From: Bacteroidota bacterium
GTDB lineage: Bacteria; Bacteroidota; Bacteroidia; Chitinophagales; Chitinophagaceae
Reading direction: 5' to 3'
DNA length: 33,775 nt
Assembly: GCA_013289175.1 (NCBI GenBank)
Contig: JABDAN010000026.1
Coordinates: forward strand, 2,139-35,913
A program made the translations under genes and the position numbers. This document shows, piece after piece, positions 1-17,167 of the stretch. The first letter of the stretch is position 1, and every line of letters begins with the position of its first letter. The notes beneath the pieces are model-generated. The model saw only the letters and a program-made list of their open reading frames with translations. It was not told the DNA's origin and did not search any database.

Positions 1-55
1 ATTCTTCTTTATGCAACTCTTTGGTTTTACCATCAACCTCCTGACGCTCTTCGCG
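1..55 (+). pseudogene. RND efflux permease fragment, left arm of inverted duplication
   Basis: Read on the + strand these bases encode FFMQLFGFTINLLTLFA, part of the fourth transmembrane region of AcrB/HAE1-type RND permeases, just before the proton-relay aspartates. The stretch is an exact reverse complement of 643-697 (position i pairs with 698-i). The match fails at 56, and from about 57 the sequence changes to the inverted downstream part of the same gene. The gene therefore enters the window in + orientation and is cut here. The arm may extend leftward outside the window. I infer a rearranged or chimeric copy, not a functional gene. Confidence 0.75.
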
Positions 56-56
56 T

Positions 57-804
57 TGGTCCTTTCCAGCGAAGAGGCGGGTGGAAGATTTACGCTGAGC
101 ATAAGAAAGTTCTGGTCCTCGGCCGGAATGAATCCCGTGGGTGTAGTCCTGACTTCCCAAATGGTGAGGCCTATGACAATGGCCAATCCGAAAGCAGCCA
201 GCCATTTGCGCCGGATCAGAAATTCCACTGCACCCATATAGCGATTGGTTGTCGCCTGAAAACCCGCATTGAAAGCATTTCCAAATCTTTTTCCGAAACT
301 GGTTTTTATATGGTCATCCCCTTTTCCATTTTTCTCATTTTTTAAAAACAGCGCACACAAGGCCGGACTCAGGGTCAATGCATTGAGGGCGGAAATCAAA
401 ATGGCGATAGCCAGGGTAAAGGCGAATTGGCGGTAAAAAATTCCTACACTGCCTTTCATGAATCCGACGGGAATAATAACCGCCGCCATTACCAAGGTGA
501 TGGAGATAATGGCACCCGAAATTTCACTCATGGATTGTATCGTGGCTTCTTTGGCATTGAGCCCCGTTCGCTCCATTTTTGAATGGGCAGCTTCCACCAC
601 GACGATGGCATCGTCCACGACGATACCGATGGCCAGCACCAGCGCGAAGAGCGTCAGGAGGTTGATGGTAAAACCAAAGAGTTGCATAAAGAAGAATGTC
701 CCGATGATGGCAACCGGTACGGCGATGGCCGGAATCAAGGTGGACCTGAAATCCTGGAGGAAAACAAAAACCACCAGGAATACCAGGACAAATGCTTCCA
801 AGAT
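57..804 (-). pseudogene. AcrB/HAE1-family RND efflux permease, inverted internal segment
   Basis: The reverse strand encodes about 249 residues of the proton-driven RND drug exporter family: ILEAFVLVFLVVFVFLQDF, then FFFMQLFGFTINLLTLFALV, the proton-relay motif VVDDAIVVVEAAH (equivalent to AcrB D407/D408), ALNALTLSPALCALFLK, and the porter-domain motif IPAEDQNFLMLSVNLPPASS. This corresponds to roughly residues 335-590 of AcrB, whose full length is about 1050. There is no start; a stop codon lies immediately upstream (807-805). On the other side the frame runs on without a stop into antisense sequence of the left arm. Both the N-terminal third and the C-terminal half are missing. Its natural partner, an outer membrane factor, follows on the opposite strand, so an original + strand permease-OMF operon has been disrupted. 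Confidence 0.85.
643..697 (-). repeat. Right arm of a perfect 55-bp inverted repeat
   Basis: Bases 643-697 are the exact reverse complement of bases 1-55, with 587 bases between the arms. Both arms code for the same permease segment in opposite orientations. Beyond position 55/643 the two sides mismatch at 56, 61 and 64 and then diverge. A perfect match that ends inside codons, in a gene needed only once, points to a recent foldback event or an assembly junction, not to a selected repeat. Confidence 0.85.
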
Positions 805-1433
805 CTATTCGCCGGGACGGAAATTTAACGGATATTCATTTCAGCGATTCCCTGGAAACCGGTTTGCCGGTGGGTCTTTTAAACCGAAGACCCGATGTGC
901 GGGCTGCGGAAATGGCGCTGGTCAGTGCCAATGCACAGGTAGGCATCAGCCAGGCAAATATGTATCCGGCATTGAATCTGACGGCGGGCACTGGTTTCGA
1001 AACCTTGAAGGCCAGCAACTGGTTTAATATTCCCGGATCCTTGTTTGGCATAGCAGGCGCAACGCTGATTCAGCCGGTATTGCAGGGCAGGCAGTTGAAA
1101 ACGCAACTGGAGATTTCCAGACAGCAAAGAGAACAGGCTGTTATCCGGTTCCGGCAAGCCGTACTGACGGCTGCAACCGAAGTGACGGATGCGCTGGTTC
1201 GGATAAACAAACTCAAAGAACAGGAGGGATTTGCGCAACAAAGAGCCGATACCCTTTCTGCGGCTGTAAACAACGCGCAATTGTTATTTAAAAACGATAT
1301 GGCCAATTATCTGGAAGTCATCACCGCTCAGCAAACAGCGCTGGATGCACAGTTGAGCCTGGCTTTTCTTCAAAATCAAGAGTTGAATGCAAGGGTTGAA
1401 CTGTACCGATCCCTGGGTGGTGGCTGGAAATAA
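804..1433 (+). pseudogene. Outer membrane factor (TolC/NodT family), 5'-truncated
   Basis: This is the C-terminal part (about 209 residues) of a NodT/OprM-like outer membrane channel that works with an RND pump and a periplasmic adaptor. The family hallmark GLPVGLLNRRPDVRAAEMAL lies near the start of the fragment. It is followed by SQANMYPALNLTAGTG and the long helical second repeat ending NYLEVITAQQTALDAQ and LYRSLGGGWK, a typical C-terminus. The codons before about 804 (MLPR) are antisense of the inverted permease piece, so the apparent ATG at 792 is not the real start; about 250 N-terminal residues including the signal peptide are missing. The amidase gene follows after 15 bases and may have been cotranscribed. 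The family call is secure and the truncation is clear; whether it is natural or artefactual is unknown. Confidence 0.85.
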
Positions 1434-1448: not shown

Positions 1449-3062
1449 ATGGATAGGAGAAAATTTCTTCGCAATGGCTCTTTGACGACAATGGGAGGAA
1501 TCGGATTGGGATTGGTTGCCGGCAGCTGGCGGGATAATGGGCAGGAAGCAACACGCATGGCCGAAGCTCCGGCGCTGGACCTGGAGGAGACAACCATAGA
1601 AGAACTGCAAAAGAAAATGCAGTCCGGCGAACTGACCTCCGTCAAAATCACGCAAGCCTATCTGGTTCGGATACAAAGAATAGACCGCAAAGGCCCCGAA
1701 CTCAATGCCATCATCGAATTGAATCCGGACGCTTTGCAGATCGCTGCCTCCCTGGATGCAGAAAGAAAAGAGGGAAAACTGCGCGGACCCTTGCATGGGA
1801 TACCGATCCTGGTCAAAGACAACATCAATTCAGGCGACAAGATGCTCACCACCGCCGGGTCACTGGCCCTATTGGGCAACTACGCAAAGGAAGATGCCTT
1901 TGTTTTAAAACAATTGCGGAAGGCTGGCGTCGTGCTGCTGGGAAAAACAAATCTGAGTGAGTGGGCAAATTTTCGTTCATCTCATTCCTGCAGTGGTTGG
2001 AGCAGTCGGGGCGGCCAAACCAAAAGTCCTTACATCCTGGACCGAAATCCTTCGGGATCCAGCGCGGGCTCTGGTTCAGCAGCGTCAGCCAATCTCTGTA
2101 CGGTGAGTGTCGGAACAGAAACCGACGGATCGGTGGTTTCGCCGGCAGCCGTCAACGGACTGGTAGGAATAAAACCAACCGTGGGATTGTGGAGCCGCAC
2201 GGGCATCATACCCATTTCTGCCACACAGGATACCGCTGGACCCATGACCAGAACGGTAAGCGATGCGGCCATACTGCTCGCAGCAGGAGTCGGTTTGGAT
2301 GAGTCCGATCCGGTAACCAAAAACAGTGAAGGCAAATCCCACACCGATTACCGGTCCTTTCTTGTCAAGGGAAGTCTGAAAGGGAAAAGAATTGGTATTG
2401 AAAAATCACACCTCGAGGGCAATCCCGATATGGTTGCCTTGCTTCGGGAAGCGATGACGACCATGGAAGCGCAAGGGGCTACGATGGTGATGGTGGATGT
2501 GATGGGTCCCTTGAAACTATTGGGCACCGCAGAATACCAGGTCCTGCTTTATGAATTTAAAGACGGACTGAACCGGTATCTGGGTTCGGCCTCGGGAGAA
2601 GTGAAATCGCTTAAAGAGCTGATCGCTTTTGATTTGCAATATCACCAGAAAATGATGCCATTTTTCAAACAGGAGATCCTGGTGGAGAGCGAAGCAAAAG
2701 GAGGACTGGAAAGCAAAGAATATATCGATTCCCTGGAGAAAACACTGGGCTTTCGAAAAACTGTTTTAGATCTCATGGCCGCCAATAACCTGGACGCCCT
2801 CGGCGGATTTACCAATGGTCCGGCCTGTTGCATTGACCTGGTGAATGGAGACTATGACAACGGACCTTCACTGTCCACCCCGGCAGCCATTACCGGTTTT
2901 CCGCACATTACCGTTCCCATGGGCCTGTGGCACGGTCTGCCAATGGGGATTTCTTTTTATGCAGGTCCCTACACCGAACCCCTGTTGCTGTCCCTGGCAT
3001 ATGCCTATGAACAAGCTTCTTTAAAAAGACAAAAACCTGTTTTTGAAAAAGAGCTGTTGTGA
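1449..3062 (+). CDS. Tat-exported amidase (amidase signature family)
   Basis: This 537-residue protein hydrolyses carboxamide bonds by the Ser-cisSer-Lys mechanism of the amidase signature (AS) family. The triad is visible: K123 in ILVKDN, S204 in NPSGSSAGSGSA and S228 in GTETDGSVV. The spacing fits secreted peptide amidases of this family. The N-terminus MDRRKFLRNGS followed by a Gly-rich hydrophobic stretch is a twin-arginine signal, so the enzyme should act in the periplasm. The ATG has a purine-rich AAAAGG a few bases upstream. It lies 15 bases after the outer membrane factor fragment and 75 bases before the flippase, both on the same strand. Gatsby-type GatA is excluded by the Tat signal. 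The substrate is unknown; given the context it could cleave a peptide or amide product of the adjacent NRPS cluster, but that is inference. Confidence 0.9.
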   Translation: MDRRKFLRNGSLTTMGGIGLGLVAGSWRDNGQEATRMAEAPALDLEETTIEELQKKMQSGELTSVKITQAYLVRIQRIDRKGPELNAIIELNPDALQIAASLDAERKEGKLRGPLHGIPILVKDNINSGDKMLTTAGSLALLGNYAKEDAFVLKQLRKAGVVLLGKTNLSEWANFRSSHSCSGWSSRGGQTKSPYILDRNPSGSSAGSGSAASANLCTVSVGTETDGSVVSPAAVNGLVGIKPTVGLWSRTGIIPISATQDTAGPMTRTVSDAAILLAAGVGLDESDPVTKNSEGKSHTDYRSFLVKGSLKGKRIGIEKSHLEGNPDMVALLREAMTTMEAQGATMVMVDVMGPLKLLGTAEYQVLLYEFKDGLNRYLGSASGEVKSLKELIAFDLQYHQKMMPFFKQEILVESEAKGGLESKEYIDSLEKTLGFRKTVLDLMAANNLDALGGFTNGPACCIDLVNGDYDNGPSLSTPAAITGFPHITVPMGLWHGLPMGISFYAGPYTEPLLLSLAYAYEQASLKRQKPVFEKELL

Positions 3063-3137: not shown

Positions 3138-4481
3138 ATGAAGGACAACAAACACTACTGGCTAAAATCTGGGTCCTATTCACTGATATTGAATATTCAG
3201 CAGTTGTTGTTTGGTTTTGGTGGATTTTACCTCCTGGTCCGGATACTAGACAAACATAGTTTCGGGATATGGGTATTGTTTGTGGCAACGACCACGATTT
3301 TTGAAATGTCAAGGGGCGGTCTGATCCAATATGCGCTGATCAAATTCTTGTCTGAAAGCGCTGAAGTAGAAAAACCCCGGATTATTTCGGCTTCTTTTGT
3401 ATTGAGTGGGATCCTGATGGCGGTTTGTATCGTAGTCAATATATCCCTGGCCGGATTTCTTTCCCGTCTCTGGCACTATCCGGAACTGTTGCCCATGTTT
3501 TTAATTTTTAACGGCGTATATATTCTGCAGGGTATTTTATCCCAGTTTCAATGGATTGAGCAATCTTATTTCAGATTCGGCGGCATCCTGGTGACCACCA
3601 TGATCCGGCAGGGTGGATTTTTCTTCTATATTCTGGTCTGTTTTATTTTCAACCTGCCTGTTTCTCTGCTGAGCCTGATCTATGCCCAGGCGATCAGCAC
3701 GGGACTGGCCGCTTTGTTATCCTGGTTTTATGTACGAAACTATCTGGTCATCTCCTATCACCTGCATATCGATTGGATAAAAAAATTATTCAACTACGGA
3801 AAATTTGTTTTTGGTACCTATATCAGTGGTATGCTTTCGGCCACCATCAATCAAATGATGCTTGGCACCATGATCTCCCCGGATGCGGCTGGGTCTTACA
3901 ATGTAGCCATCCGTGTTTTTAACCTGACAGACCTGCCTACCAACGCCCTGGGCACCATTGTTTTTCCACAAAGCGCCAAACGATTTGCGGAGCAGGGAAA
4001 AGATGCCGGCAAATATCTTTATGAAAAGTCGGTGGGCACCATTCTGGCCGTTCTGGTTCCGCTGGTCATCTTTGTATTTTGTTTTCCATCCTTTGTCGTC
4101 AGGGTAGTAGCGGGTCACAATTACATGGATTCTGTACCCCTGGTTCAGGTCGTGATCCTGACCTGTCTGCTCAATCCTTATGACAAGTTTTTTGGGGTCA
4201 TCATGGATTCAATCGGCAAGGCCCGGCTGAACTTTATCATCATCTTTGGCTTCACCGTTTCAACCCTTGTTTTCAACTACTTCCTGATTGGCCGTTACGG
4301 CATCATGGGTTGTATTTACGGAACCCTGGCTGCCGACCTGATCATCTTTGTGATCCGCCAGTTTATATTGTATAAACTGTTGCATGTTAACATGTTAAGT
4401 CCCTTTATCTATGCCTGTAGATTTTACCCGGAATTCCTGCGCAACTATGTAAAACCCCTGTTGGGAAAAATACCTGGCTAA
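3138..4481 (+). CDS. Polysaccharide/lipid flippase-like membrane protein (MOP superfamily)
   Basis: A 447-residue integral membrane protein with about 12 hydrophobic segments. It has the layout of Wzx-like oligosaccharide flippases in the MOP (MATE/PST) superfamily: an N-terminal SYSLILNIQQLLFGFGGFYL helix, the VRILDKHSFGIWVLF motif typical of the family, and a central amphipathic loop before FGTYISGMLSATINQMMLG. It would move an amphipathic substrate across the inner membrane. The reading frame can be extended upstream to a TTG at 3093, but the added residues are not family-like, and the ATG at 3138 gives the usual short cytoplasmic start (MKDNKHYWLKSG). Directly upstream of a cupin and NRPS genes with no glycosyltransferases around, it is more likely an exporter for the cluster product than part of a capsule locus. 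The substrate is not shown by the sequence. Confidence 0.82.
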   Translation: MKDNKHYWLKSGSYSLILNIQQLLFGFGGFYLLVRILDKHSFGIWVLFVATTTIFEMSRGGLIQYALIKFLSESAEVEKPRIISASFVLSGILMAVCIVVNISLAGFLSRLWHYPELLPMFLIFNGVYILQGILSQFQWIEQSYFRFGGILVTTMIRQGGFFFYILVCFIFNLPVSLLSLIYAQAISTGLAALLSWFYVRNYLVISYHLHIDWIKKLFNYGKFVFGTYISGMLSATINQMMLGTMISPDAAGSYNVAIRVFNLTDLPTNALGTIVFPQSAKRFAEQGKDAGKYLYEKSVGTILAVLVPLVIFVFCFPSFVVRVVAGHNYMDSVPLVQVVILTCLLNPYDKFFGVIMDSIGKARLNFIIIFGFTVSTLVFNYFLIGRYGIMGCIYGTLAADLIIFVIRQFILYKLLHVNMLSPFIYACRFYPEFLRNYVKPLLGKIPG

Positions 4482-4565
4482 ATCCCTTTTTCGCCTCTGC
4501 GGTATTATGATTATCTGGAAATTATGATTAATTTGTCTGCGTTTCGCTCGTAAAAACCCCTTTCC

Positions 4566-5417
4566 ATGGAAGTTCAAAAAGTGGATGACATTTCCTATGC
4601 ATCTTTTATGCAGGATTTTTATCAACCCGGTGTTCCTGTCGTATTTAAAAATGCCTCAAAGGTCTGGAAGGCCAAGGGTCTTTTCAGCCCCGATTGGTTT
4701 CGTTCCAACTTTGGAGACCGGACAACAGAAGTGAAAGACAAAACTTACACCATGCGCCAGATCATGGACATGGTTGAAAACAGTTCCGTATCAAATCCCG
4801 CTCCTTATCCCTGTATTTTTGATATACCAGAAACCCTCCCGGAAATCTTGCCATTGCTTCAGCCCCTGAATCTGAATTACGCAAAACCCAACTGGCTGGA
4901 GAGCAAATGGTTCAACAAAGGTCATTGGGGTGGCGCCACAGAACTGTTTATTGGCGGGCCCGGAGGACGGTTTCCTTTTATTCATCTGGATTATTATCAT
5001 CTCAATGCCTGGATAACGCAACTCTACGGCGAAAAACGATTTACTGTTTTTCCCCGAGGTCAGGAAGATTTTCTTTATCCAAAACCAGAAGATCCCTGGC
5101 GTTCCGATATCAATATTTTCGAACCGGATTTTGAAAAGTATCCCAAATATAAAAATGCAACGCCGATTAATTTTGTCGTCGGTCCGGGTGAAACTTTATT
5201 CATTCCATTTGGAACCTGGCATACGGCCTATTCTCTTTCGCCCACTATTTCGGTTGCCTTTGATCAGCTGAATAAAAAAAATTATATAGATTTTGTAAAA
5301 GATGTATGGTCTTTTAAAAAGCGGGACAGTACAGTAAAAGCCATCGCGAAAACAGGGTATGCCTGGCTAGCCGGTCAGGCATGTAAAGTGGGAGACAGCC
5401 TCCATCCGCAACATTGA
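4566..5417 (+). CDS. JmjC/cupin_8-type Fe(II)/2-oxoglutarate-dependent oxygenase
   Basis: A 283-residue soluble protein of the cupin_8/JmjC-like family, whose characterised members are Fe(II)/2-oxoglutarate hydroxylases acting on side chains. The metal-binding facial triad is visible as H140-x-D142 in FIHLDYYH and H219 in FIPFGTWHTAYSL. Other family signatures are the strand ITQLYGEKRFTVFP, a YPKPEDP segment and PGETLFIPFGTWH. There is no signal peptide, so it is cytoplasmic. It lies 84 bases after the flippase and 133 bases before the hybrid synthetase on the same strand, which makes it a good candidate tailoring enzyme that hydroxylates an amino-acid building block, a carrier-bound intermediate or the released product. 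A protein-hydroxylating role cannot be excluded. Confidence 0.82.
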   Translation: MEVQKVDDISYASFMQDFYQPGVPVVFKNASKVWKAKGLFSPDWFRSNFGDRTTEVKDKTYTMRQIMDMVENSSVSNPAPYPCIFDIPETLPEILPLLQPLNLNYAKPNWLESKWFNKGHWGGATELFIGGPGGRFPFIHLDYYHLNAWITQLYGEKRFTVFPRGQEDFLYPKPEDPWRSDINIFEPDFEKYPKYKNATPINFVVGPGETLFIPFGTWHTAYSLSPTISVAFDQLNKKNYIDFVKDVWSFKKRDSTVKAIAKTGYAWLAGQACKVGDSLHPQH

Positions 5418-5550
5418 CACGTTGAAACGATTGTAGATTGCTAATCCACCCAACAGCCTTCTGATTTTGTTTTACGATTGGCCTCAATTGGAAACAGGAT
5501 TTTGGAAAACTTATTTCTTCGAAAGAAATCAAAAATCAAATGCGATCACA

Positions 5551-8500
5551 ATGAACGTTCCTCCGGGAAATATCAATGACGCCTATCGCGGAGTGGAACC
5601 ATCGATACAAGAACTATTTGACCGTCAGCAAATACAAACCCCTGATGCCATCGCCGTCCGTTTTGAAGGAAGAGAACTTTCCTATGCCGCTCTGAGCAAA
5701 AGAGCGAACCTTCTGGCCAATCAAATTCTATCCAGTCCTTCTTCTTCTTTTCCTCTCATTGGCATCAGTACGACCCGGTCGATTGATATGATCGCGGGTG
5801 TACTGGCAATTTTGAAAAGCGGAAAAGCTTATCTCCCGCTGGATCCAAGTTATCCGGCCGATCGCCTAGATCAAATGATCTCCGATTCTGGTATTCAGAT
5901 CTGCCTGGCGCCTGCGGCGGATATTTCCATATTTGAAAACCTACACAAGGACATACTGCTTCATTCATACGACCACCCGGAAACCGAAGAGGAAAAACGG
6001 TTGACCACCAGGGCCGGCACCCTGGCCTATATTCTTTATACCTCCGGATCGACTGGCAAACCCAAGGGAGTCAGCATGGGGCAGACACCGCTGGTAAATT
6101 TGCTGACCTGGCAGAAAAAACATTCTTTGGCGGGAAAGGGAACCAAAACCCTTCAATTTGCACCCTTGAGTTTTGACGTTTCCTTTCAGGAAATTTTTGC
6201 AACCCTGACGACCGGGGGTACCTTGGTATTGGTGGGCGACGATCTCAGACTGGATCCGCAAAGGTTGCTGCGTTTTATTCAGGAAGTTTCCATAGACAGA
6301 ATTTTTCTGCCCTTTGTAGCCCTGCAATTTTTATCCGAGGCGGCCGACTTCCATCAGCTTTTTCCTGTTTCCTTGCGCGAAGTCATTACAGCCGGCGAAC
6401 AACTCAAAGTCACCCCGCAGCTGGTAAAATTTTTTTCAGCCTTACCTAATTGCCGCCTCTTCAATCAATATGGTCCCACCGAATGCCATGTGGTGACGGC
6501 CCTGGCTCTGGAAGGAGATCCGGCCGCGTGGCCAGCCCTGCCCAGCATCGGAAAACCGATTGACGAAACAGCCATTTGGATCCTGGATGAGAATCTGAAA
6601 CCATTGCCTTCTGGACAGACCGGTGAACTTTGCATCAGCGGAAAAAGTCTGGCGGAAGGATATCTGAACCGACCGGAACTGACGGCGGAAAAATTCATCG
6701 CCTGGCGCCATCCGTCCCTAGGTGATTTACGACTGTATAGAACGGGAGATCTGGCACGCATTCTACCCGACGGCAACATCGAACTAAAAGGTCGCAGGGA
6801 TGAGCAGGTAAAAATCCGGGGTTACCGGATCGAGCCTGGAGAAATTGAAGTAGTTCTCAACCAACAAAAAGGGATAAAGCAAGCCATCGTGGTAGCCAGA
6901 GAAGATATTCCGGGCCAAAAAAGACTCATCGCTTATTTGGTCTCATCCGACGGAAAAAAAGATACGCCTTTGATCCGCCAGGCGATTGAACAACATTTGC
7001 CGGATTATATGATCCCTTCGGCCTTTGTGTGGATCCATGAACTACCCAAAACCTCGAGCGGCAAAGTCGATAAAAAACTACTTCCCGTTCCGGAAATAAA
7101 AAGGCCGGAATTGTCGGTACTTTATAAAGCACCTACGACCGCATCGCAGAAAAAGATAGCCCAGGCTTTCAGCGATGTTTTGCAACTGGATAAAGTGGGT
7201 ATTGAAGATAATTTTTTTGAACTCGGGGGGAACTCCCTGCTGGCGCTTAAAACAGTTGCCCGGTTGAAAGAAGCAAATCAACTGGATCTGCCCATCACGA
7301 AATTATACCAGCATCCCACCGTGCGCGGGATCGTGGAGTTTTTTGAAGGCCAAGGAAAAATAACACCGGTTACTGCCAAAAAGAAAATAAAACCGGATAC
7401 CAAAACCAGCGATGTGGCTGTCATCGCCATGGCCGGTCGTTTTCCCGGAGCCAACACCATCGAAGGGTTGTGGAATATCGTCAAAGAGGGAAGGGATACG
7501 ATTTCTTTTTTTACTAAAGAAGAATTGGATCCCCACATTGATGAGGCGACCAAAAACAATCCGGACTATATCCCTGCCCGGGGCATCCTGGAGGGTGCCG
7601 ACCGTTTCGATGCTGCATTTTTTGGTATCAATCCGAGACTGGCAGAACTCATGGATCCCCAGCAACGAATTTTTCTGGAGATCGCCTGGGAAGCACTGGA
7701 AAGTGGTGGATATGTCCCGTCAAAATATAAAGGCTCCATCGGTGTATTCGCCGGGACCGGAAACAATACGTACTATCTCCAAAATGTACAAAGCAACCAG
7801 GATAAGATAGAACAGGTAGGCAGTTTTCAGGTAATGACCGTCAATGAAAAAGACTATGTGGCATCGCGTACCGCTTATGAACTGAATTTAAAAGGACCCG
7901 CCGTCAGTATTCATTCGGCCTGTTCCACATCCCTACTGGCCATTGCCGAAGCGACCGAAGCGATCCGCCAAGGTCAGTGCGATATCGCCCTGGCGGGAGG
8001 GGTGGCCGTCACGGTGCCCGTTAAAAGCGGTCATCTCTACCAGGAAGGTGCCATGTATAGTCCAGACGGTCACTGCAGGACTTTCGATGCCCAGGCAGCC
8101 GGCACCGTATTCAGCGATGGCGCTGGGGTGGTGCTGCTCAAGCGACTGGAAGACGCGGAAAAAGATGGAGATATTATTTTTTCGGTCATCCGCGGCGTGG
8201 GGATGAATAACGACGGCGGCTCCAAGGGAAGTTTCACCGCGCCCAGTGCAGAAGGTCAGGCAGGCGCCATTCACCGGGCCATAGAAGATGCGGGGATCAG
8301 TGCATCCACCATTGGTTATATTGAAGCCCATGGAACGGCCACCCCCCTGGGGGATCCCATCGAAATTGAGGGATTGAACCTCGCCTTCGGTCCGCAGGAC
8401 ATAAAACAATATTGTGCCCTGGGTTCCATCAAGTCCAATATTGGTCATCTGACGGCTGCCGCCGGAGTAGCGGGTTTCATCAAGACGACGCTTGCCTTGT

Positions 8501-11500
8501 ACTATCAAAAAATTCCGGCCTCGATACATTTTTCTACACCCAATCCGCATATTGATTTTAAGAACAGTCCCTTTTATGTGAACACCCAATACAAAGAATG
8601 GGAATCCAATCAGGCCAGACGGGCAGGTGTCAGCTCTTTTGGTGTCGGGGGAACGAATGTGCATGTAATCCTGGAAGAACATCTGCCAAAGACGGGTGCC
8701 TTTCCACCGAGAAAAAAAGATACGGGTTCCGGGTATTTGGTCAGCTGGTCGGCTAAATCGATCACCAGCCGTGAAAATTTTGCATTAAAACTATCGGACT
8801 ATCTGAAGCAGCATGAAACACTGGATATCTCGGACCTTGCCTACAGTCTGCAGACAGGTCGTGAAAATTTTAATGCCCGTCGTTTTGCGATTGCCCTTAA
8901 CAGAGAGGACCTGATTCAAAAACTGCAAGCCGCACCTACTGGAGCCGATTCAAATATGCTGAAAGAAAAACTGACGGACCTGGTTTTTCTTTTTCCTGGT
9001 CAGGGGGCACAGTCGGTCAATATGGGTCGAGCCCTATACGAACAGGAACCGGTATTTAAACAAGCCGTGGACCAATGTGCTGAGGGGTTGAAGCCGCTGA
9101 TGAAGGAAGACATCCGGGATATCCTTTATCCCTCAAAAGATGTCAGGCTGGCGGAACAGAAAATACACAACACTTACTATACCCAACCGGCACTTTTTAT
9201 CATCGAATACGCCACGGCCATGTTATGGATGAGCTGGGGAATCAAACCAGCTGCTTTTGTAGGTCACAGTATCGGAGAATTTGCAGCCGCTCATTTATCT
9301 GGAGTATTCAGTCTGGCCGATGCCTTGAAACTGGTCTTCAGCCGAAGCAGCCTGATGGCTTCACTTCCTACCGGTAGCATGCTGGGCGTCCGCAGTGCAC
9401 ACGAAAACATTACACCCCTGATGCCAGAGGGGGTTTCCCTGGCAGCCATCAACAGTCCGGCTTTGTCGGTCGTGTCAGGTCCGGAAGATATAATGGAAAA
9501 TTTTTCCAGGTTGTTGACTGAAAAAGGCTTTGCCAATAAACGACTTCAGACCAGTCACGCTTTTCATTCTGCGATGATGGATCCCATTGTCTCTGCCTTT
9601 GAAAAAGTGGTAAAGTCTGTTCCGATGCATCTGCCCAGGATTCCGATTGCCTCCACGCTGACCGGAAAATGGGTAACCGATCAGGAGATCACGCAGCCGC
9701 AGTACTGGTCTGGTCAGCTACGAAAACCCGTTCGCTTTGCTGAGGCCATTCAGACGGTGGTTGAAGAAGGTTTTCCCCTGATGCTCGAAACGGGCCCTGG
9801 GCGTGTACTCAGTACGCTTGTCAGACAGCAGGGTTTGAAAAATCCGGTTACTGCAATTGCTAGCCTGGACACAGAAGATGGAAAAACAGCGGCCCATGCA
9901 GTATTAAAAGCCTTGGGTCAGCTTTGGATGCACGGGTTGGATCCCGACTGGGAAAGTTTTTATCAGGGTCAAAAAAGATCTCGCCTGTCTTTGCCCGGTT
10001 ATGCTTTTGACCGGACTCGTTTTTGGGTGGACCCCATAGCCACGCAAATGTCTAAATCGGTTGTGCCTTCCCGTTTGAATGGTTCGGATACGGCTGAACC
10101 CGTTCCAACACCCGCTAAAAATATTTTGCCTCAACCAAGGATCATGAGAAAATCAGTATTGATAAAGAAACTCAAGGAGATGCTCGAAAATGCTTCCGGT
10201 ATTGAAATGGAAACCGTGACTCCGGACATGAATTTTATCGAAATCGGATTCGATTCCCTCCTGTTAACCCAGGTGGCCCTGAATCTTAAAAAAGAATTCG
10301 GTCTGCCGATCAGTTTCCGCCAGTTAAACGAATCCTACACCAATCTGGATTTGCTTGCCGGCTTTCTGGATGAAAATCTGCCGAAAGAAAAATTCCAGGC
10401 CTCCGGCGCAGTTTCTGACCCAGCCGCCGCAGGGATTCAGGCCACCGATCGGGGAGACCAGTCTGCCCTTTCAGACATTACAAAGCAGATACAGTTGCTG
10501 GCTCAACAAGTGGCCCTGTTACAAGGTAACCCGCCCGTAGTCCCGGTAAAAAAAACCATCCCCAGCGAATCAGAAAAAGGACTGAGTCCAGAAGAAATCA
10601 ATGAACTGAAAAAGCCGTTCGGAGCTACGGCCAAAATTGAGAAGCACGCAACCACCCTCAGCAAAACCCAGGAAACCTACCTTAGGGATTTTACTGCCCG
10701 TTATAACCAGAAGACCCGTCTGAGTAAGGCCTATGCACAGGATAACCGGGCTTTCATGGCAGATCCCCGGGTCGTATCCGGATTTAAACCACTGACCAAA
10801 GAAATTGTATATCCCATCGTGGTCAACCGATCGAAAGGCAGCCGCCTTTGGGATATCGACGGCAACGAATACATTGATGCCCTGAACGGATTTGGATCGA
10901 ATTTCCTGGGCTACCAGCCGGAGATTATTACCGAAGCCCTCAAAAAACAGATCGACCTGGGATATGAACTCGGACCCCAGCACGAATTGGCGGGAGTCGT
11001 TTGCAAACTCATCTGTGAATTTACAGGTATGGACCGCTCCGCACTCTGCAATACTGGTTCAGAAGCCGTACTCGGAGCGATGCGCATCGCCCGGACCGTG
11101 ACCGGCCGTTCGACCATTGTGGCTTTTTCGGGATCCTATCATGGAATCGTCGACGAAGTAATTGTCCGGGGAACCAAGAAGCTTAAATCCTTTCCCGCCG
11201 CCCCGGGAATCATGCCGGAAGCTGTACAGAATATGCTCATCTTGGATTATGGTACAGAGGAAAGTCTGGCCATCATCCGGGAAAGGGCCCATGAACTGGC
11301 GGCCGTATTGGTGGAACCGGTGCAAAGCCGCCGGCCCGAATTTCAGCCCATCGAATTTTTGAAAGAGCTTAGGGCGATCACCGCGCAATCGGGTTCCGCC
11401 CTGATTTTTGACGAAGTGATTACCGGTTTCCGGGCTCACCCGGCCGGGGCCCAGGGCATTTTTGGTATCGCCGCCGACCTGGGGACTTATGGAAAAGTAG

Positions 11501-12150
11501 TTGCTGGCGGATTGCCCATCGGAGTGATTGCCGGTAAAAAGTTGTTCATGGACGCCCTGGACGGCGGATTCTGGCAATATGGTGACAATTCCACACCCGA
11601 ATCGGGCGTTACTTATTTTGCCGGAACATTTGTCCGGCATCCCTTGGCGCTGGCTGCGTCCCGGGCTTCTTTGGAATATATGAAGGAAAAGGGCCCCCGT
11701 TTGCAGGAGGACTTGAATGCACTGACGGCCAGCCTTTCGGAAGCGATCAACCGGATTTGCACCAAATATGGCCTGCCGATTTATGCAGCTCAATTTGGAT
11801 CCCTCTGGAAGTTAAAATTTAAGGAAGAAATTCCTTATTTTGAACTCTTGTTTTCGGCGATGCGCGAAAAAGGAATCCATATCTGGGACGGATTTCCCTG
11901 TTTTCTTACTCTGGCGCATCGGCCAGAAGAGGTGGCGCAAATTGTAGAAAAATTTGAAGAGTCGGTGAATGAGTTGATGACCGCAGGTTTTTTATCGCAC
12001 GCACAACCCAAGATTGGAATTTCTGGTATTGGATCATCGGAAGAGAAACCACCCGTTTACGGAGCCAAACTTGGCCGTGACCGGGAGGGAAATCCTGCCT
12101 GGTTCATCATGGATCCTAACAGACCCGGAAAATATATGCAGGTAACTTAA
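5551..12150 (+). CDS. Hybrid NRPS-PKS-aminotransferase (A-T-KS-AT-ACP-AMT)
   Basis: A 2199-residue loading plus extension module. A domain about 17-530 (TSGSTG at 164-169, YRTGDLAR, C-terminal catalytic Lys in TSSGKVDK); carrier T with GGNSL, S562; KS about 621-1045 with C791, H927, H966; AT about 1145-1440 with GHSIGE S1240 and HAFH 1336-1339, the malonyl-type motif; ACP about 1531-1605 with GFDSL S1569; a helical linker; then a class III PLP aminotransferase about 1725-2150 with DEVITGFR and Lys1982 in TYGKVVAGG. There is no KR, DH or ER, so the beta-ketone is left for transamination. No C domain precedes A, so this is the starter. By alignment to GrsA PheA numbering the A code reads D-V-Q-F-I-A-Q-V-V-K, one position from proline codes. 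An in-frame TTG at 5467 exists; the ATG at 5551 fits the domain start better. The KS-AT-ACP-AMT order and linker resemble MycA/ItuA and McyE. Confidence 0.95.
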   Translation: MNVPPGNINDAYRGVEPSIQELFDRQQIQTPDAIAVRFEGRELSYAALSKRANLLANQILSSPSSSFPLIGISTTRSIDMIAGVLAILKSGKAYLPLDPSYPADRLDQMISDSGIQICLAPAADISIFENLHKDILLHSYDHPETEEEKRLTTRAGTLAYILYTSGSTGKPKGVSMGQTPLVNLLTWQKKHSLAGKGTKTLQFAPLSFDVSFQEIFATLTTGGTLVLVGDDLRLDPQRLLRFIQEVSIDRIFLPFVALQFLSEAADFHQLFPVSLREVITAGEQLKVTPQLVKFFSALPNCRLFNQYGPTECHVVTALALEGDPAAWPALPSIGKPIDETAIWILDENLKPLPSGQTGELCISGKSLAEGYLNRPELTAEKFIAWRHPSLGDLRLYRTGDLARILPDGNIELKGRRDEQVKIRGYRIEPGEIEVVLNQQKGIKQAIVVAREDIPGQKRLIAYLVSSDGKKDTPLIRQAIEQHLPDYMIPSAFVWIHELPKTSSGKVDKKLLPVPEIKRPELSVLYKAPTTASQKKIAQAFSDVLQLDKVGIEDNFFELGGNSLLALKTVARLKEANQLDLPITKLYQHPTVRGIVEFFEGQGKITPVTAKKKIKPDTKTSDVAVIAMAGRFPGANTIEGLWNIVKEGRDTISFFTKEELDPHIDEATKNNPDYIPARGILEGADRFDAAFFGINPRLAELMDPQQRIFLEIAWEALESGGYVPSKYKGSIGVFAGTGNNTYYLQNVQSNQDKIEQVGSFQVMTVNEKDYVASRTAYELNLKGPAVSIHSACSTSLLAIAEATEAIRQGQCDIALAGGVAVTVPVKSGHLYQEGAMYSPDGHCRTFDAQAAGTVFSDGAGVVLLKRLEDAEKDGDIIFSVIRGVGMNNDGGSKGSFTAPSAEGQAGAIHRAIEDAGISASTIGYIEAHGTATPLGDPIEIEGLNLAFGPQDIKQYCALGSIKSNIGHLTAAAGVAGFIKTTLALYYQKIPASIHFSTPNPHIDFKNSPFYVNTQYKEWESNQARRAGVSSFGVGGTNVHVILEEHLPKTGAFPPRKKDTGSGYLVSWSAKSITSRENFALKLSDYLKQHETLDISDLAYSLQTGRENFNARRFAIALNREDLIQKLQAAPTGADSNMLKEKLTDLVFLFPGQGAQSVNMGRALYEQEPVFKQAVDQCAEGLKPLMKEDIRDILYPSKDVRLAEQKIHNTYYTQPALFIIEYATAMLWMSWGIKPAAFVGHSIGEFAAAHLSGVFSLADALKLVFSRSSLMASLPTGSMLGVRSAHENITPLMPEGVSLAAINSPALSVVSGPEDIMENFSRLLTEKGFANKRLQTSHAFHSAMMDPIVSAFEKVVKSVPMHLPRIPIASTLTGKWVTDQEITQPQYWSGQLRKPVRFAEAIQTVVEEGFPLMLETGPGRVLSTLVRQQGLKNPVTAIASLDTEDGKTAAHAVLKALGQLWMHGLDPDWESFYQGQKRSRLSLPGYAFDRTRFWVDPIATQMSKSVVPSRLNGSDTAEPVPTPAKNILPQPRIMRKSVLIKKLKEMLENASGIEMETVTPDMNFIEIGFDSLLLTQVALNLKKEFGLPISFRQLNESYTNLDLLAGFLDENLPKEKFQASGAVSDPAAAGIQATDRGDQSALSDITKQIQLLAQQVALLQGNPPVVPVKKTIPSESEKGLSPEEINELKKPFGATAKIEKHATTLSKTQETYLRDFTARYNQKTRLSKAYAQDNRAFMADPRVVSGFKPLTKEIVYPIVVNRSKGSRLWDIDGNEYIDALNGFGSNFLGYQPEIITEALKKQIDLGYELGPQHELAGVVCKLICEFTGMDRSALCNTGSEAVLGAMRIARTVTGRSTIVAFSGSYHGIVDEVIVRGTKKLKSFPAAPGIMPEAVQNMLILDYGTEESLAIIRERAHELAAVLVEPVQSRRPEFQPIEFLKELRAITAQSGSALIFDEVITGFRAHPAGAQGIFGIAADLGTYGKVVAGGLPIGVIAGKKLFMDALDGGFWQYGDNSTPESGVTYFAGTFVRHPLALAASRASLEYMKEKGPRLQEDLNALTASLSEAINRICTKYGLPIYAAQFGSLWKLKFKEEIPYFELLFSAMREKGIHIWDGFPCFLTLAHRPEEVAQIVEKFEESVNELMTAGFLSHAQPKIGISGIGSSEEKPPVYGAKLGRDREGNPAWFIMDPNRPGKYMQVT

Positions 12151-12161
12151 AGAAACGTCGT

Positions 12162-15100
12162 TTGGATATAAAGGATACGATATCGAATCTGAAGCCAGTA
12201 GAATTTGACCCATTTGCAGGTCCTGAATTGCTGCGGGCTGTCCCGGCCATTGAACCCCAGCTGGAAATATGGATATCCTGTCTTCTGGGAGGAGCGGATG
12301 CCAACCGGTCTTACAATGAATCGATTTCACTTCGGTTGACCGGCCCCTTTCATCAACGGGCCATGGAGCAAGCCCTGCAGGCGGTGATTGATCGCCATGA
12401 AGCACTGCGTTCTACCTTCAGTGCCGACGGAAAACAAATTTGTGTTTACCGCGAACTGCCTTTGAAATACCGCTATGAAGACCTTAGCAGTTTATCCGAG
12501 GAAGATCAGGAAGAGTTTATCTCAACATTTACCAAGCACAATGCGCTGGAGATTTTCGACCTGGTGAACGGACCTTTGTTTAAGGCCGCTTTGTTTCGAT
12601 TGAAAGAGGAGGTGCACTATCTCACCCTCGCCGCACACCATATCATCTGCGATGGCTGGTCCCTGGGCATCATCATGCAGGACCTGAGTAAATTTTATTC
12701 TGCCTTTGTCAAAAATATTCCGCCAGCCTTGGCGCCCGCTCCTTCATTTTGTGACTTTGCCCTGGAACAATGGAGATTTTCTGAATCTGAAGAATACAAA
12801 ATAACAGAACAGTACTGGTCCGATCAGTATCAGGGTCAGGTGCCGATGGTGGACATGCCTACCGATTTTCCTCGGCCTGCGGCGCGTACCTATAAAAGTC
12901 ACCGGGATGACTATCGGCTGAATCCGGAATTGGTATCGGCACTGAAAAAAATGGGCGCCAAATCAGGTTGTACCCTGGTGACGACTTTGATGGCCACCTA
13001 TGAGATTTTCCTGCACCTGGTTACCGGACAATCCAATATTGTCTTGGGTATTCCGGCTGCCGGTCAGTCTACGACAGGACACTATGGACTCGTTGGTCAC
13101 TGCGTGAACCTGCTGCCCATGCGCAGTTATCCGAATGGGGAAATGAGTTTTACAGAATACCTGAAGACCAGAAAAACGCAAATCCTCAACGATTACGAGC
13201 ACCAGCAAATCACCTTCGGAAGCCTGCTTAAAAATCTGAATATATCAAGAGATGCATCCAGGATTCCCTTGGTACCCCTGGTGTTTAACATTGATATGGG
13301 TCTGGATGACGGCGTTGTCTTCGAAAATTTGAAGCATCAGCTGCTCTACAATCCGAGGGAATATGAAAATTTTGAAATCTTCATCAATGCGAGCGGATCT
13401 GAAAACGCCTTGGTACTGGAATGGTCTTATAATACCCAGATATTTAAGTCCTCCACGATCCTGCGGATGATGAATGAATATGAATACATGCTGCAGGCGG
13501 TAGTAGAGACCCCCTCTATCAAAATAAAAGATATCCCCTTGTTGCCGCCGGACCAACTGCGGGCAAGACTGCGTAACTGGAATGCTACGGCCTTTGACTA
13601 TCCGAAGGAAAAAACTTTTCATCAGCTCTTCAGTGAAACATCCCGGCAATATCCCGATAAGATTGGCCTGAGGGTTGGTGACCAATCCTATAGTTATAAG
13701 CAAATCAATCAGGAAGCCAATCAGCTTTCTGCTCTATTGATTGAGCAAGGCGTACGAGCTCATGACGTGGTGGCGCTGGCCCTGCACCGTTCGGCGGAAA
13801 TGGTTATTGCCCTGCTGGCGATTATGAAAGCAGGTGCTGCCTACCTTCCGCTGGATCCCGTCTATCCCAAGGACCGGATACAATTCATGCTCGAAGATTC
13901 GTCCGCCAAACTGATTATTACTTCTCAAGCCTATAAAGGAACTTTTAAATCCAAGGCAAAGGAGTTGCTCATCGAGCAGGCCTGGTCAAAATTGCCGGAA
14001 TATTCAAAAAAAGATCCCGACGTAGAATCCAACAGCCGGAGTCTGGCTTATCTGTTGTATACTTCTGGTTCTACGGGAAAACCCAAGGGCGTCATGGTTG
14101 AACACCACAACCTGGTAAACCTGTTGTTCAGTATGCAGAAATTTCCGGGTATCACACCCCAGGACAAACTGCTGGCCGTAACGACTATCTCCTTTGACAT
14201 CGCCGGCCTGGAATTGTACCTGCCCCTGATTTCTGGTGCCGAATTGGTGTTGGCCAGTGACGACGATCAAAAAGACGGTAGAATCCTGTTGGAAAAATTG
14301 AAAAAGGAAAAGATCAGCATCATGCAAGCCACACCGGTGACTTTCAAAATGATGCTGGAATCCGGTTGGCAGGATTTTATGAATATAAAAGTACTCTGCG
14401 GCGGGGAACCGATTCCCCGGGATCTCGCCGCCAGACTGCTTCCGCGATGCAAAGGACTGTATAACATGTATGGACCAACGGAAACAACCATCTGGTCCAC
14501 CTGCGGACAAATATTTTCTGCTGATGAAACCATTACCATCGGAAGGCCGATTGGCAACACCCAGGTATATATTTTAGATCACTACGAAAATCCCATCCGC
14601 GATGGTATGATCGGTGAAATTTATATCGGTGGAGAGGGTGTAACAAGGGGTTACTTGAACCGTCCGGAACTACAATCAGAAAAATTTATTCCCGATCCGT
14701 TTTCCAAAACACCGGGCATGAAAATGTACCGGACCGGAGATCTTTCGCGCTTTTTGCCCGATGGTAGCATCGAATACATGGGCCGGGTGGATGACCAGGT
14801 AAAAATTCGGGGATTCCGCATTGAGCTCAACGAAATAGAATATGTGATCCAACAGCATGACAGTATACAACAGGCTGTCGTCATCGCAAGAGAAGACGGA
14901 CAGTCGGAAAAAAAACTGATTGCCTACGTAGTACCCAACGGACAGTTCGACAAAGAAAACCTGACTACTTTTCTTTATACCAAGCTGCCAGACTATATGG
15001 TGCCAAGGGTATTCATCCCGCTGAACCGGCTTCCGCTGACCAATAATGGGAAGCTGGATAAAAAAGCATTGCCGGATCCGGATCTCTTGCCTGAGTTTGG

Positions 15101-16232
15101 CATTCGTAAAATCAGACCGCCGGAAACAGAAACGCAGAAAATGTTGCTCGCCATCTGGAAAGACGCTTTGCAATTGCAACAAATTGGCATCGATGATAAT
15201 TTTTTCGAACTAGGAGGTCACTCGCTCACAGCGATCCGGATCATCCGCACGATCGAGGATAAAACCAAACGACGTTTGCCGATCACGGCTTTGTTTGAAT
15301 CACCCACCATCGAAAAACTGGCCGTACTGCTGGAGACTGAAGAAAGACCCAGTTATTGGAATTCACTGGTGCCCATCAAGGCAGCAGGGAATAAGCCGAC
15401 GCTTTACGTAGTGCACGGCTCCGGACTGACGGTTCTTGTATTTCATACCCTGGCTACTTTACTGGATCCCGACCAGCCCGTTTTTGGATTACAGGCCAGG
15501 GGACTCAACGGGATCGATCAACCCTTTGACAGCATGGAAGACATTGCAGCCTATTATGTAGCTGAAATCCTCGAACAAAATCCTACGGGACCTTATAGCC
15601 TGGCCGGTTATTCTTTTGGGGGAATCGTGGCATTTGAAATGGCAAAACAATTGAAAGCAACAGGCCGCGAGGTGAACATGCTGGCCATTTTTGATACCAA
15701 TGCCGATAACTCTTATTTCTTCGACAGCCCGGCCATCCGGATGAAGAAAAAGATCCGGCGCCAGTTTCCAAAATTTAATTTTATCGTCCGTTCTTTTTTC
15801 AGGAATCCGGGTGCCACCATCCGCTATCAGATTAATTTCGTTCGCTACAAACTGCATTACCTGTTGCGGGCAGCAAAACTGGTGGATAAGGATATGGACG
15901 ATGGAGAAAAGATCGCACACGCCGCGGAGATCAACGAGAAACACGATATTGCTTTTTCGAAATATAAGATGACCCCCTATAACGGGACCATCGATTTGTT
16001 CCGCGTCAAGGGTCGGAGTTATTTCCTGGATGATCCGATCTATCTGGGATGGAAACCATATGCGATGCAGGGTGTAGACATCCACGAAATCTCCGGTGAC
16101 CACAAGACCTTTCTTCTTCCACCCAATGTGAAGGAGTTGGCCAAGCTCCTGGATGAGATCATGAAAAAAAGAAATGCCGGCAAGGTGAAAAAGGATTTGG
16201 TGAATCCATCTTCGGTATTGAAGGCCATCTAG
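12162..16232 (+). CDS. Nonribosomal peptide synthetase, terminal module (C-A-T-TE)
   Basis: A 1356-residue terminating module that accepts the beta-amino-acyl chain from the upstream ACP, adds one amino acid and releases the product. C domain about 20-440 with HHIICDG at 159-165; A domain about 475-985 with TSGSTG from residue 634, YRTGDLSR and NNGKLDKK; T domain with GGHSL, S1021; thioesterase about 1100-1340 with GYSFG S1151, D1178 (AIFDTN) and H1314 (SGDHK). The A code read by eye is D-I-L-Q-C-G-M-I-W-K, close to glycine codes. The only plausible start is TTG at 12162, 11 bases after the upstream stop and preceded by AAAGAAA; the next in-frame Met lies well inside the C domain. The short gap suggests tight translational coupling. 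There is no epimerase. Release could be hydrolytic or cyclising. Confidence 0.95.
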   Translation: MDIKDTISNLKPVEFDPFAGPELLRAVPAIEPQLEIWISCLLGGADANRSYNESISLRLTGPFHQRAMEQALQAVIDRHEALRSTFSADGKQICVYRELPLKYRYEDLSSLSEEDQEEFISTFTKHNALEIFDLVNGPLFKAALFRLKEEVHYLTLAAHHIICDGWSLGIIMQDLSKFYSAFVKNIPPALAPAPSFCDFALEQWRFSESEEYKITEQYWSDQYQGQVPMVDMPTDFPRPAARTYKSHRDDYRLNPELVSALKKMGAKSGCTLVTTLMATYEIFLHLVTGQSNIVLGIPAAGQSTTGHYGLVGHCVNLLPMRSYPNGEMSFTEYLKTRKTQILNDYEHQQITFGSLLKNLNISRDASRIPLVPLVFNIDMGLDDGVVFENLKHQLLYNPREYENFEIFINASGSENALVLEWSYNTQIFKSSTILRMMNEYEYMLQAVVETPSIKIKDIPLLPPDQLRARLRNWNATAFDYPKEKTFHQLFSETSRQYPDKIGLRVGDQSYSYKQINQEANQLSALLIEQGVRAHDVVALALHRSAEMVIALLAIMKAGAAYLPLDPVYPKDRIQFMLEDSSAKLIITSQAYKGTFKSKAKELLIEQAWSKLPEYSKKDPDVESNSRSLAYLLYTSGSTGKPKGVMVEHHNLVNLLFSMQKFPGITPQDKLLAVTTISFDIAGLELYLPLISGAELVLASDDDQKDGRILLEKLKKEKISIMQATPVTFKMMLESGWQDFMNIKVLCGGEPIPRDLAARLLPRCKGLYNMYGPTETTIWSTCGQIFSADETITIGRPIGNTQVYILDHYENPIRDGMIGEIYIGGEGVTRGYLNRPELQSEKFIPDPFSKTPGMKMYRTGDLSRFLPDGSIEYMGRVDDQVKIRGFRIELNEIEYVIQQHDSIQQAVVIAREDGQSEKKLIAYVVPNGQFDKENLTTFLYTKLPDYMVPRVFIPLNRLPLTNNGKLDKKALPDPDLLPEFGIRKIRPPETETQKMLLAIWKDALQLQQIGIDDNFFELGGHSLTAIRIIRTIEDKTKRRLPITALFESPTIEKLAVLLETEERPSYWNSLVPIKAAGNKPTLYVVHGSGLTVLVFHTLATLLDPDQPVFGLQARGLNGIDQPFDSMEDIAAYYVAEILEQNPTGPYSLAGYSFGGIVAFEMAKQLKATGREVNMLAIFDTNADNSYFFDSPAIRMKKKIRRQFPKFNFIVRSFFRNPGATIRYQINFVRYKLHYLLRAAKLVDKDMDDGEKIAHAAEINEKHDIAFSKYKMTPYNGTIDLFRVKGRSYFLDDPIYLGWKPYAMQGVDIHEISGDHKTFLLPPNVKELAKLLDEIMKKRNAGKVKKDLVNPSSVLKAI

Positions 16233-16242
16233 TAATAAGCCG

Positions 16243-17004
16243 ATGAACGCTTCTTTGTCCGCTAACCACCCGCCACCCATGCAGAAAATCCCAGCTACTC
16301 CTCTTTTTCTAAACCCCGGACTTTGTAACTGGGAACTGGATCAGGCTGTGCATGTATGGAGGTTTCCCCAGCAAATGATTTCCATTTCTTTGCTCACGGA
16401 AGATGAAAAACAATTTGCTGCCCGTTTTCGGTTGGAAGAAGACCGAAACCGGTTTATCACGGGCCGGCAAGCCCTGCGACTGCTGCTGACCCAATACTTG
16501 GATAGTAACAGGAAAATCATCCTTCGTTCCCAATCGGGCGGCAAACCCTTTGTCAGTGAACCCCCTTTCCCCATATCCTTTAATCTGAGTCACTCCGGCC
16601 ACTGGATTCTTCTTGCTTTTGCATCGCAGGAACTGGGTATTGATATTGAAAAAATAAATCCGGATTTTATATTTCAAGACTTGCTGGACGAACACTTCAG
16701 TGAAGAGGAAAAATCTTTTATGCAAAGGTCTTCCGATCCGCTGGCGGTTTTTTATTATTTGTGGACCCGCAAGGAAGCCCTGACCAAGGCCTGGGGAACC
16801 GGACTGCAGGAGAATTTAAAAAAGGTGGACGTTCTGGACGGCTTCCATCACCAAATGAATAACCAGGTCTGGACACTGAGCAGTCTATTTTTGTCTTCAG
16901 ACTATCCGGCGGCCCTGGCATACGCCGGTTTACCCAAAAGTATTTTCTATTTTGATGGCGGCCAATTGGACAGTCTTTCATTCCCAGAAAGAACGGGCGC
17001 ATAG
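16243..17004 (+). CDS. Sfp-type 4'-phosphopantetheinyl transferase
   Basis: A 253-residue enzyme that moves phosphopantetheine from CoA onto the carrier-protein serines, here most likely S562 and S1569 of the hybrid synthetase and S1021 of the terminal NRPS. Family motifs are in order: RFITGRQALRLLL, FNLSHSGHW (116-120 core), GIDIE with Mg-binding D134 and E136, and WTRKEALTKAWGTGL with W174, K177, E178 and K182. The length is typical for the Sfp/EntD-like group and longer than AcpS. It starts 10 bases after the NRPS stop on the same strand, so it is the last gene of the biosynthetic operon. An upstream phosphopantetheinyl transferase being cluster-encoded supports the cluster being self-sufficient. 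Confidence 0.93.
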   Translation: MNASLSANHPPPMQKIPATPLFLNPGLCNWELDQAVHVWRFPQQMISISLLTEDEKQFAARFRLEEDRNRFITGRQALRLLLTQYLDSNRKIILRSQSGGKPFVSEPPFPISFNLSHSGHWILLAFASQELGIDIEKINPDFIFQDLLDEHFSEEEKSFMQRSSDPLAVFYYLWTRKEALTKAWGTGLQENLKKVDVLDGFHHQMNNQVWTLSSLFLSSDYPAALAYAGLPKSIFYFDGGQLDSLSFPERTGA

Positions 17005-17167
17005 GAAATCAAGGTGCTGAATAAATGAACGGCAGATGTCCAAAGCAGGTCCTGAATTTCTTATTGTTTTTAGAAAGAAATCAGCGGTTCTTATTGATCG
17101 TTCAATCGATCCGGGATCTAAGGGTTTCCTTTATTTCATATCCCCATTTCAATTTGTACATTTAAAT

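Follow-up and report, generated by a model that had tools for sequence, protein, structure and literature searches.

Organization and domain content of the cluster

The stretch of DNA analyzed here in full, hereafter the window, comprises 33,775 nucleotides from a Bacteroidota bacterium of the family Chitinophagaceae (GenBank assembly GCA_013289175.1, contig JABDAN010000026.1, positions 2,139 to 35,913 of the forward strand), whose 3.2-Mb metagenome-assembled genome (MAG) is 80% complete. It carries a hybrid nonribosomal peptide synthetase–polyketide synthase (NRPS–PKS) cluster, in which five genes lie in a row on the plus strand. These encode a Wzx/MOP-type flippase (3138..4481; Pfam PF13440 and PF01943), a cupin_8/JmjC-type Fe(II)/2-oxoglutarate oxygenase (4566..5417; PF13621), a first assembly-line protein of about 2.2 thousand amino acids with adenylation, thiolation, ketosynthase, acyltransferase, acyl carrier protein and aminotransferase domains (A-T-KS-AT-ACP-AMT; 5551..12150), a second of 1356 amino acids with condensation, adenylation, thiolation and thioesterase domains (C-A-T-TE; 12162..16232), and an Sfp-type phosphopantetheinyl transferase (16243..17004; PF01648 and PF22624). 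The open reading frames (ORFs) and Pfam domains agree with the row described in a first-pass annotation of this DNA, and the gaps of 10–133 bases given there hold if the ATG at 5551 is the start of the first assembly-line gene. This ORF opens with a TTG at 5467; the ATG gives the length of most relatives and is the more likely start. Near the beginning of the C-A-T-TE gene, TTG codons are the only starts.

Pfam matches and motif inspection placed the A, T, KS, AT, ACP, C and TE domains in the modular order of a hybrid NRPS–PKS, every motif that was looked for being intact, and the catalytic residues checked were indeed present in each domain, as first described. The carriers are intact (two in A-T-KS-AT-ACP-AMT, one in C-A-T-TE), the KS has its Cys-His-His residues, the AT shows GHSIGE and HAFH, the latter of which we take to indicate the malonyl type, the AMT has its Asp and Lys, the C domain reads HHIICDG, and the TE contains GYSFGG and GDH. 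The C-A-T-TE protein holds the sole condensation domain that our search found in the MAG.

Among the 60 solved proteins listed, the top match of the AMT region was the aminotransferase of mycosubtilin MycA (6kfu, 433 bits). A hemL-type aminomutase identity was considered and rejected, as the glutamate-1-semialdehyde aminomutase models scored below their cut-offs. The region is a class III aminotransferase fused behind an ACP, as in MycA, ItuA and McyE, which bears out the beta-aminating type first assigned to it, and it is predicted from its sequence to transaminate an ACP-bound β-ketoacyl chain. In the cupin protein, the HxD motif and the distal His are present, and H140, D142, K157 and H219 are invariant in seven aligned sequences including that of the window; the nearest solved relatives are JMJD5 and FIH.

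Predicted substrates and product

We read the ten-letter codes of the two A domains by alignment and interpreted them by general code rules. The first A domain (A1) gave DVQFIAQVVK, presumably one letter off the proline code (Gln for His), and the second (A2) gave DILQLGMIWK, which we take to be one letter off the glycine code. The first A domain is accordingly predicted to be proline-like, and the second glycine-like. Since no C domain precedes it, A1 was assigned as the starter. We also rejected a fatty-acyl starter like that of mycosubtilin, since by the code rules the Asp235 and Lys517 retained in A1 argue against it.

In the proposed scheme, A1 would load a proline-type amino acid onto T1, and the KS and AT would extend it with malonate. 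The class III aminotransferase would then convert the β-ketone on the ACP into an amine, and the C domain would condense the resulting β,γ-diamino acid with glycine on T2, before release by the TE as an acid or a lactam. The cupin_8 enzyme would probably hydroxylate the proline-derived part, and the product would be exported via the flippase and/or an RND-type (resistance-nodulation-division) system encoded upstream. The predicted core is 3-amino-3-(pyrrolidin-2-yl)propanoyl-glycine or its lactam, a vicinal-diamine pseudo-dipeptide, for which we computed [M+H]+ 216.134 in the linear form (C9H17N3O3) and 198.124 after cyclization. The logic already suggested in the first-pass annotation is supported: an amino acid, extension by a single malonate, a single transamination and then a second amino acid. 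Overall, we consider it probable that the two proteins form a hybrid NRPS–PKS that makes such a pseudo-dipeptide by this scheme.

Distribution and variation of the family

A scan for relatives of the AMT returned at least 80 loci; those listed have 67–83% identity and are all from Bacteroidota, and counts out of 80 below refer to the matches listed. The listed loci span Chitinophagaceae, Sphingobacteriaceae, Hymenobacter, Spirosoma and kin, and Flavobacteriaceae, and thus form the conserved family that had been named beforehand as support for novelty. At E 1e-60, the AMT was present in 13 of 58 genomes, among them that of the window and G051, the latter with a match of only 40%. It was also present in 28 of 151 Sphingobacteriaceae genomes, and in 14 of 395 genomes of the phylum (the window's own included; weakest match 54%). 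Four candidates were scored per genome in the last count, which is therefore possibly an undercount.

Classified by length, the commonest arrangement, in 39 of the 80 listed loci, has a second gene of C-A-T-TE size adjoining the first. The others comprise 17 loci with a longer second gene, six with one of extra-module size, three with a fusion, and 15 that are cut or otherwise arranged. The fused ORFs, each encoding both assembly-line proteins, lie at L014:4865-14731, L040:3177-15041 and L054:5051-15361. Domain scans of five proteins from relatives identified an inserted methyltransferase in both second proteins scanned from the longer class (two of 17), two C domains in both scanned from the extra-module class (two of six), and a second carrier in the fifth, encoded by a third gene. 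Among the accessory genes, the Sfp-type transferase (neighbor cluster c0) recurs in 52 of the 80 other listed loci, and the flippase (c3) in 12.

Of 74 loci with a readable A1, the window included, 45 have a proline-like code, and 36 of them share the identical code DVQFMAQVVK. For A2, 40 of 70 codes are strictly glycine-like. The AMT tree, with its 81 rows, requires at least 13 changes of A1 between the proline-like and other states, and starters therefore appear to have been swapped while the scaffold stays. The relatives would thus build on a common scaffold with the two amino acids exchanged, to which N-methylation or one extra module may be added. Furthermore, a proline-like A1 was found in 12 of 13 loci with a cupin_8 neighbor and in 33 of 61 without one (Fisher P 0.009, uncorrected for relatedness). 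Of 20 hand-picked isolate genomes, 12 have the only C domain found in this locus, and two have both of theirs in it. In the remaining six, C domains were also found outside the locus, with a total of up to 41.

Six Pedobacter loci (L038, L044, L047, L067, L070 and L086) have a gene for an FkbM-type methyltransferase beside the cluster, as assigned by scanning one member and extending the result to the others by clustering; three of these genes adjoin a cupin_8 gene. Hydroxylation followed by O-methylation is possible at these loci.

Several points weigh against the product assignment. The codes were interpreted by general rules, and position 322 of A1 is Gln, as compared with His in the proline code. 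A class III aminotransferase domain is by itself no proof of transamination here. In the family, 29 of the 74 A1 codes and 30 of the 70 A2 codes fall outside the proline and glycine patterns, and a cupin of the same neighbor cluster as the window's occurs in only 12 of the 80 other listed loci, within the flanking sequence analyzed. Even the nearest kin do not all agree in the second residue, as the A2 code of L014, the closest sister, is valine-like. Finally, the open-licence literature in PubMed Central, searched by title and the start of the abstract, yielded no product or activity for this domain string.

Genes flanking the cluster and the case for a secreted product

The cluster had been described as apparently complete, a view that the upstream sequence does not sustain. 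The same-strand row begins before 3138, with an outer-membrane efflux protein (OEP; 792..1433, plus strand; PF02321), represented here by its C-terminal part, followed after 15 bases by an amidase gene (1449..3062, plus strand; PF01425, 281 bits). In the sister locus L095 (genome G015, 83% AMT identity), genes for HlyD-type, AcrB-type (1054 amino acids) and OEP (471 amino acids) components, which make up a full RND pump, stand in one row with those for the amidase, flippase, cupin and NRPS–PKS. The amidase gene also precedes the cluster in L014 and L096. Of the pump and amidase genes in this row, the window has the amidase, part of the OEP and a fragment of the AcrB type. The N-terminal part of the OEP is inverted at the contig start: at window positions 1-801 and in C26:1-2939 (L094), AcrB-type and OEP pieces lie inverted, and inverted repeats pair C26:2139-2209 with 2765-2835 and 1920-1979 with 2069-2128. 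In addition, a stretch of N extends up to the base that precedes the window's first base. This left contig end is probably an assembly fault.

The efflux row bears on the fate of the product. That it is a free secreted small molecule, such as an antibiotic, signal, protease inhibitor or metal ligand, exported by the RND system and sharing only a genomic neighborhood with the polysaccharide genes described below, seems to us to have slightly less than an even chance. The arrangement in L095 and the remnants kept in the window argue for it, as do the type I TE and the Sfp-type transferase, which are those of ordinary secondary metabolism. On the other hand, the OEP–amidase part occurs, among the loci read, only in the window, L014/L095 and L096, where the contig of L096 ends before any RND gene could appear, and such a molecule leaves the repeated polysaccharide neighbors elsewhere unexplained.

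On the 3' side of the Sfp gene, the ORFs at 17036-17716 and 17804-18508 had no Pfam match at the thresholds used and belong to no neighbor cluster common to other loci. Neither these nor the acyltransferase gene beyond them (18536-19681) were counted in the pathway. The right flank (22.8–33.8 kb) encodes an Nramp protein, hydrolases, an M23 peptidase, a pyridoxal phosphate-dependent enzyme of Cys/Met metabolism, a transglutaminase-like protein, MutS and an amidohydrolase, and nothing in it could be assigned to the pathway. Within this flank, the DUF3857-transglutaminase part (28055-29395) and the DUF3858 part (29349-29987) occupy overlapping frames, as if a frameshift had split one gene.

Surface-polysaccharide genes around related clusters

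The earlier picture of a cluster plus its exporter also requires revision, as the flippase belongs to the Wzx-like type of polysaccharide systems and many relatives of the cluster lie with surface-polysaccharide genes. These were revealed by clustering of neighbor genes and Pfam scans of representatives. Distances to the AMT were counted in 20 genomes that were picked by hand from the 80 loci after their 10-kb neighborhoods had been viewed, and that are related and not independent. A PF13440 flippase gene lay no more than 50 kb from the AMT in 14 of the 20 (1.37 expected) and no more than 15 kb away in 11 (0.46 expected). For the PF02397 Bac_transf gene, the counts were 14 within 50 kb (1.51 expected) and four within 15 kb (0.52 expected). 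By contrast, only one of 11 other NRPS loci in the same genomes lay near a flippase (Fisher P 0.0015); these 11 were grouped by hand, seven of them come from one genome and several lie on short contigs.

Wider regions, some of them one-sided, were read for 18 of the 20 genomes. A recurring set was found there, comprising a response regulator, Bac_transf, a short OEP, Wzc-like and Wzy_C proteins, a hexapeptide transferase, a flippase and GT1 and GT2 glycosyltransferases, although not every member is present in every region. The set was found in two Mucilaginibacter, three of four Pedobacter, two Parapedobacter, two Spirosoma, Rudanella and Puia, and partly in Fibrella; FdtA and DegT are further neighbors in relatives. 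In Puia dinghuensis (L021, G060), which belongs to the window's genus, the set surrounds the cluster (G060 and G008 are one genome, with equal coordinates). In Mucilaginibacter FT3.2, 16 genes from the response regulator to the Sfp share a strand, and no two neighbors among them are more than 233 bases apart; in the Spirosoma and Rudanella loci the OEP and Wzc-like genes end 13–178 bases before the NRPS–PKS gene. In Fibrella forsythiae (G071:C34, L116-L117), polysaccharide-type genes separate the two assembly-line genes: a row of response regulator, Bac_transf, GT2, OEP and Wzc-like genes is followed by C-A-(methyltransferase)-T-TE with one more gene close behind, and the NRPS–PKS gene is divergent on the far side of the row. 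Beside the Flavobacteriaceae loci L058 and L093, the export genes are of another kind, namely Wza accompanied by Wzc- or Wzz-like genes.

Two features of these neighborhoods were recorded separately. Two Mucilaginibacter encode a separate A-T-TE protein (885-886 amino acids) within the polysaccharide row close to the NRPS–PKS gene (L109:7498-10152 and L102:17243-19900). A membrane protein without a Pfam match (c32; L100:5994-7712) is encoded before the flippase in the near relatives L017, L021 and L032.

Since the assembly line is encoded with polysaccharide genes in many relatives, the released unit may be joined to a glycan or exported together with it. In such a case the NRPS–PKS would supply a surface polysaccharide or glycolipid with a building block or substituent: its product, a cationic diamine acyl group, would be placed on a lipid-linked sugar, flipped by the Wzx-type flippase and polymerized or exported with the glycan. 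We regard this fate as tenable but rather less than probable. The enrichments in the hand-picked genomes, the contrast with the other NRPS loci, the accompanying Wzy_C, Wzc-like, OEP, hexapeptide transferase, glycosyltransferase, FdtA and DegT genes, the tight or interleaved rows, and the Wza systems of L058 and L093 all point to it.

Nevertheless, the link is not universal. A marker gene was present in the flanks of 46 of 67 loci (at least 18 kb each), a number that fell to 21 of 67 when plain glycosyltransferases were not counted. The genes that together characterize an exopolysaccharide locus (Bac_transf, Wzy, Wzc/OEP and glycosyltransferases) were found in many relatives, not in all, and at the window's cluster the flippase alone is of that kind. 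For two Hymenobacter, Gelidibacter and Winogradskyella, the sequence that was read contains no such set, and in the 40 kb read of Pedobacter mendelii the Wzy/Wzc/Bac_transf set was not found, with glycosyltransferases, FdtA and DegT present. PF02563 Poly_export was not enriched in the hand-picked genomes (within 50 kb in two of 20, expected 1.36). No enzyme that would attach the product to a sugar was identified.

The wider genome sets gave a mixed answer. In Sphingobacteriaceae, the Bac_transf subtype was present in 25 of 28 genomes with the AMT versus 44 of 123 others (Fisher P 1.7e-7, uncorrected for relatedness). In these 28 genomes it lay within 60 kb of the AMT in 12, far off on the same contig in two, and elsewhere or nowhere in 14; for the 24 of them that were new to the analysis, the corresponding numbers were nine, two and 13. 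Most genomes of the window's genus carry Bac_transf, whether or not the AMT is present, and in the MAG the Bac_transf genes of this subtype lie on other contigs (C65 and C5), with a Wzy-like gene on C65.

A longer line, with modules elsewhere in the genome or iterative action giving a larger product, is improbable: the two-module-sized second gene in six of the 80 listed loci and the incompleteness of the MAG allow for it, but the line opens without a C domain in the first protein and closes with a TE in the second, and in 12 of the 20 isolate genomes the locus holds the only C domain found.

Taken together, a proline-started, aminotransferase-bearing two-module line is distributed across several Bacteroidota families, and in many of its carriers it is encoded with surface-polysaccharide genes. 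If the scheme is true, it provides a compact and swappable route to β,γ-diamino acids, an enzyme-inhibitor motif used by chemists, and the family is kept in genomes in which often no other C domain was found (14 of 20). We tentatively suggest, with more doubt than confidence, that in several Bacteroidota families the NRPS–PKS is part of the surface-polysaccharide machinery, and that cationic diamine pseudo-dipeptides, with amino acids swapped between species, decorate the glycan. A functional link of this kind would join two fields that are normally separate, and cluster borders set around the NRPS–PKS alone would be too narrow.

Comparison with known systems

The Bac_transf, Wzy_C, flippase, Wzc-like and glycosyltransferase genes that adjoin many of the relatives are those of Wzx/Wzy-type exopolysaccharide loci. 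To our knowledge, no such locus holds a hybrid NRPS–PKS, and none was found in the open-licence PubMed Central literature by title and the start of the abstract.

Two reports describe Flavobacterium clusters that we take to be one cluster. In the accessible parts of these articles, the disease-suppression cluster is called BGC298 in one (PMC7912845) and appears without that name in the other (PMC13211072). BGC298 may or may not belong to the present family. As far as their accessible parts show, surveys of clusters from Bacteroidetes and Flavobacteriaceae describe numerous hybrids that do not resemble known clusters, and name none of this kind (PMC9248904, PMC10734526).

The first-pass annotation recognized no characterized pathway with this domain order. 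This holds in that the literature searched gave no product, but the string itself was already in print in 2013: the Pedobacter heparinus protein C6XWU5 is listed as A-CP-KS-AT-CP-PLP1, with the predicted cluster product Nrp-Mal-Gly-Pk (Milano et al. 2013, PMC3870968, Table 2). By its published domain string it matches the window's line, and it comes from the same phylum; in the accessible part of the article it is a table row, with neither product nor neighborhood given.

Among characterized pathways, mycosubtilin and iturin share the KS-AT-ACP-AMT arrangement through MycA and ItuA, and the former supplied the best-scoring solved relative of the AMT among those listed. Their aminotransferase performs β-amination of an ACP-bound β-ketoacyl chain, and these pathways use a fatty acid starter activated by an acyl ligase and many modules thereafter, whereas the window's line would start from an amino acid and add one residue after the extension. 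Detoxin/rimosamide-like pathways, as described in the accessible part of PMC12828459, are likewise hybrid NRPS–PKS systems with a proline-derived extended unit and late ring hydroxylation by a dioxygenase, and their extending module is trans-AT with a ketoreductase. In the window, by contrast, no ketoreductase was found among the Pfam matches and the AT (PF00698) is present, so that the line differs from them in combining a cis-AT with an aminotransferase, followed by the predicted incorporation of glycine.

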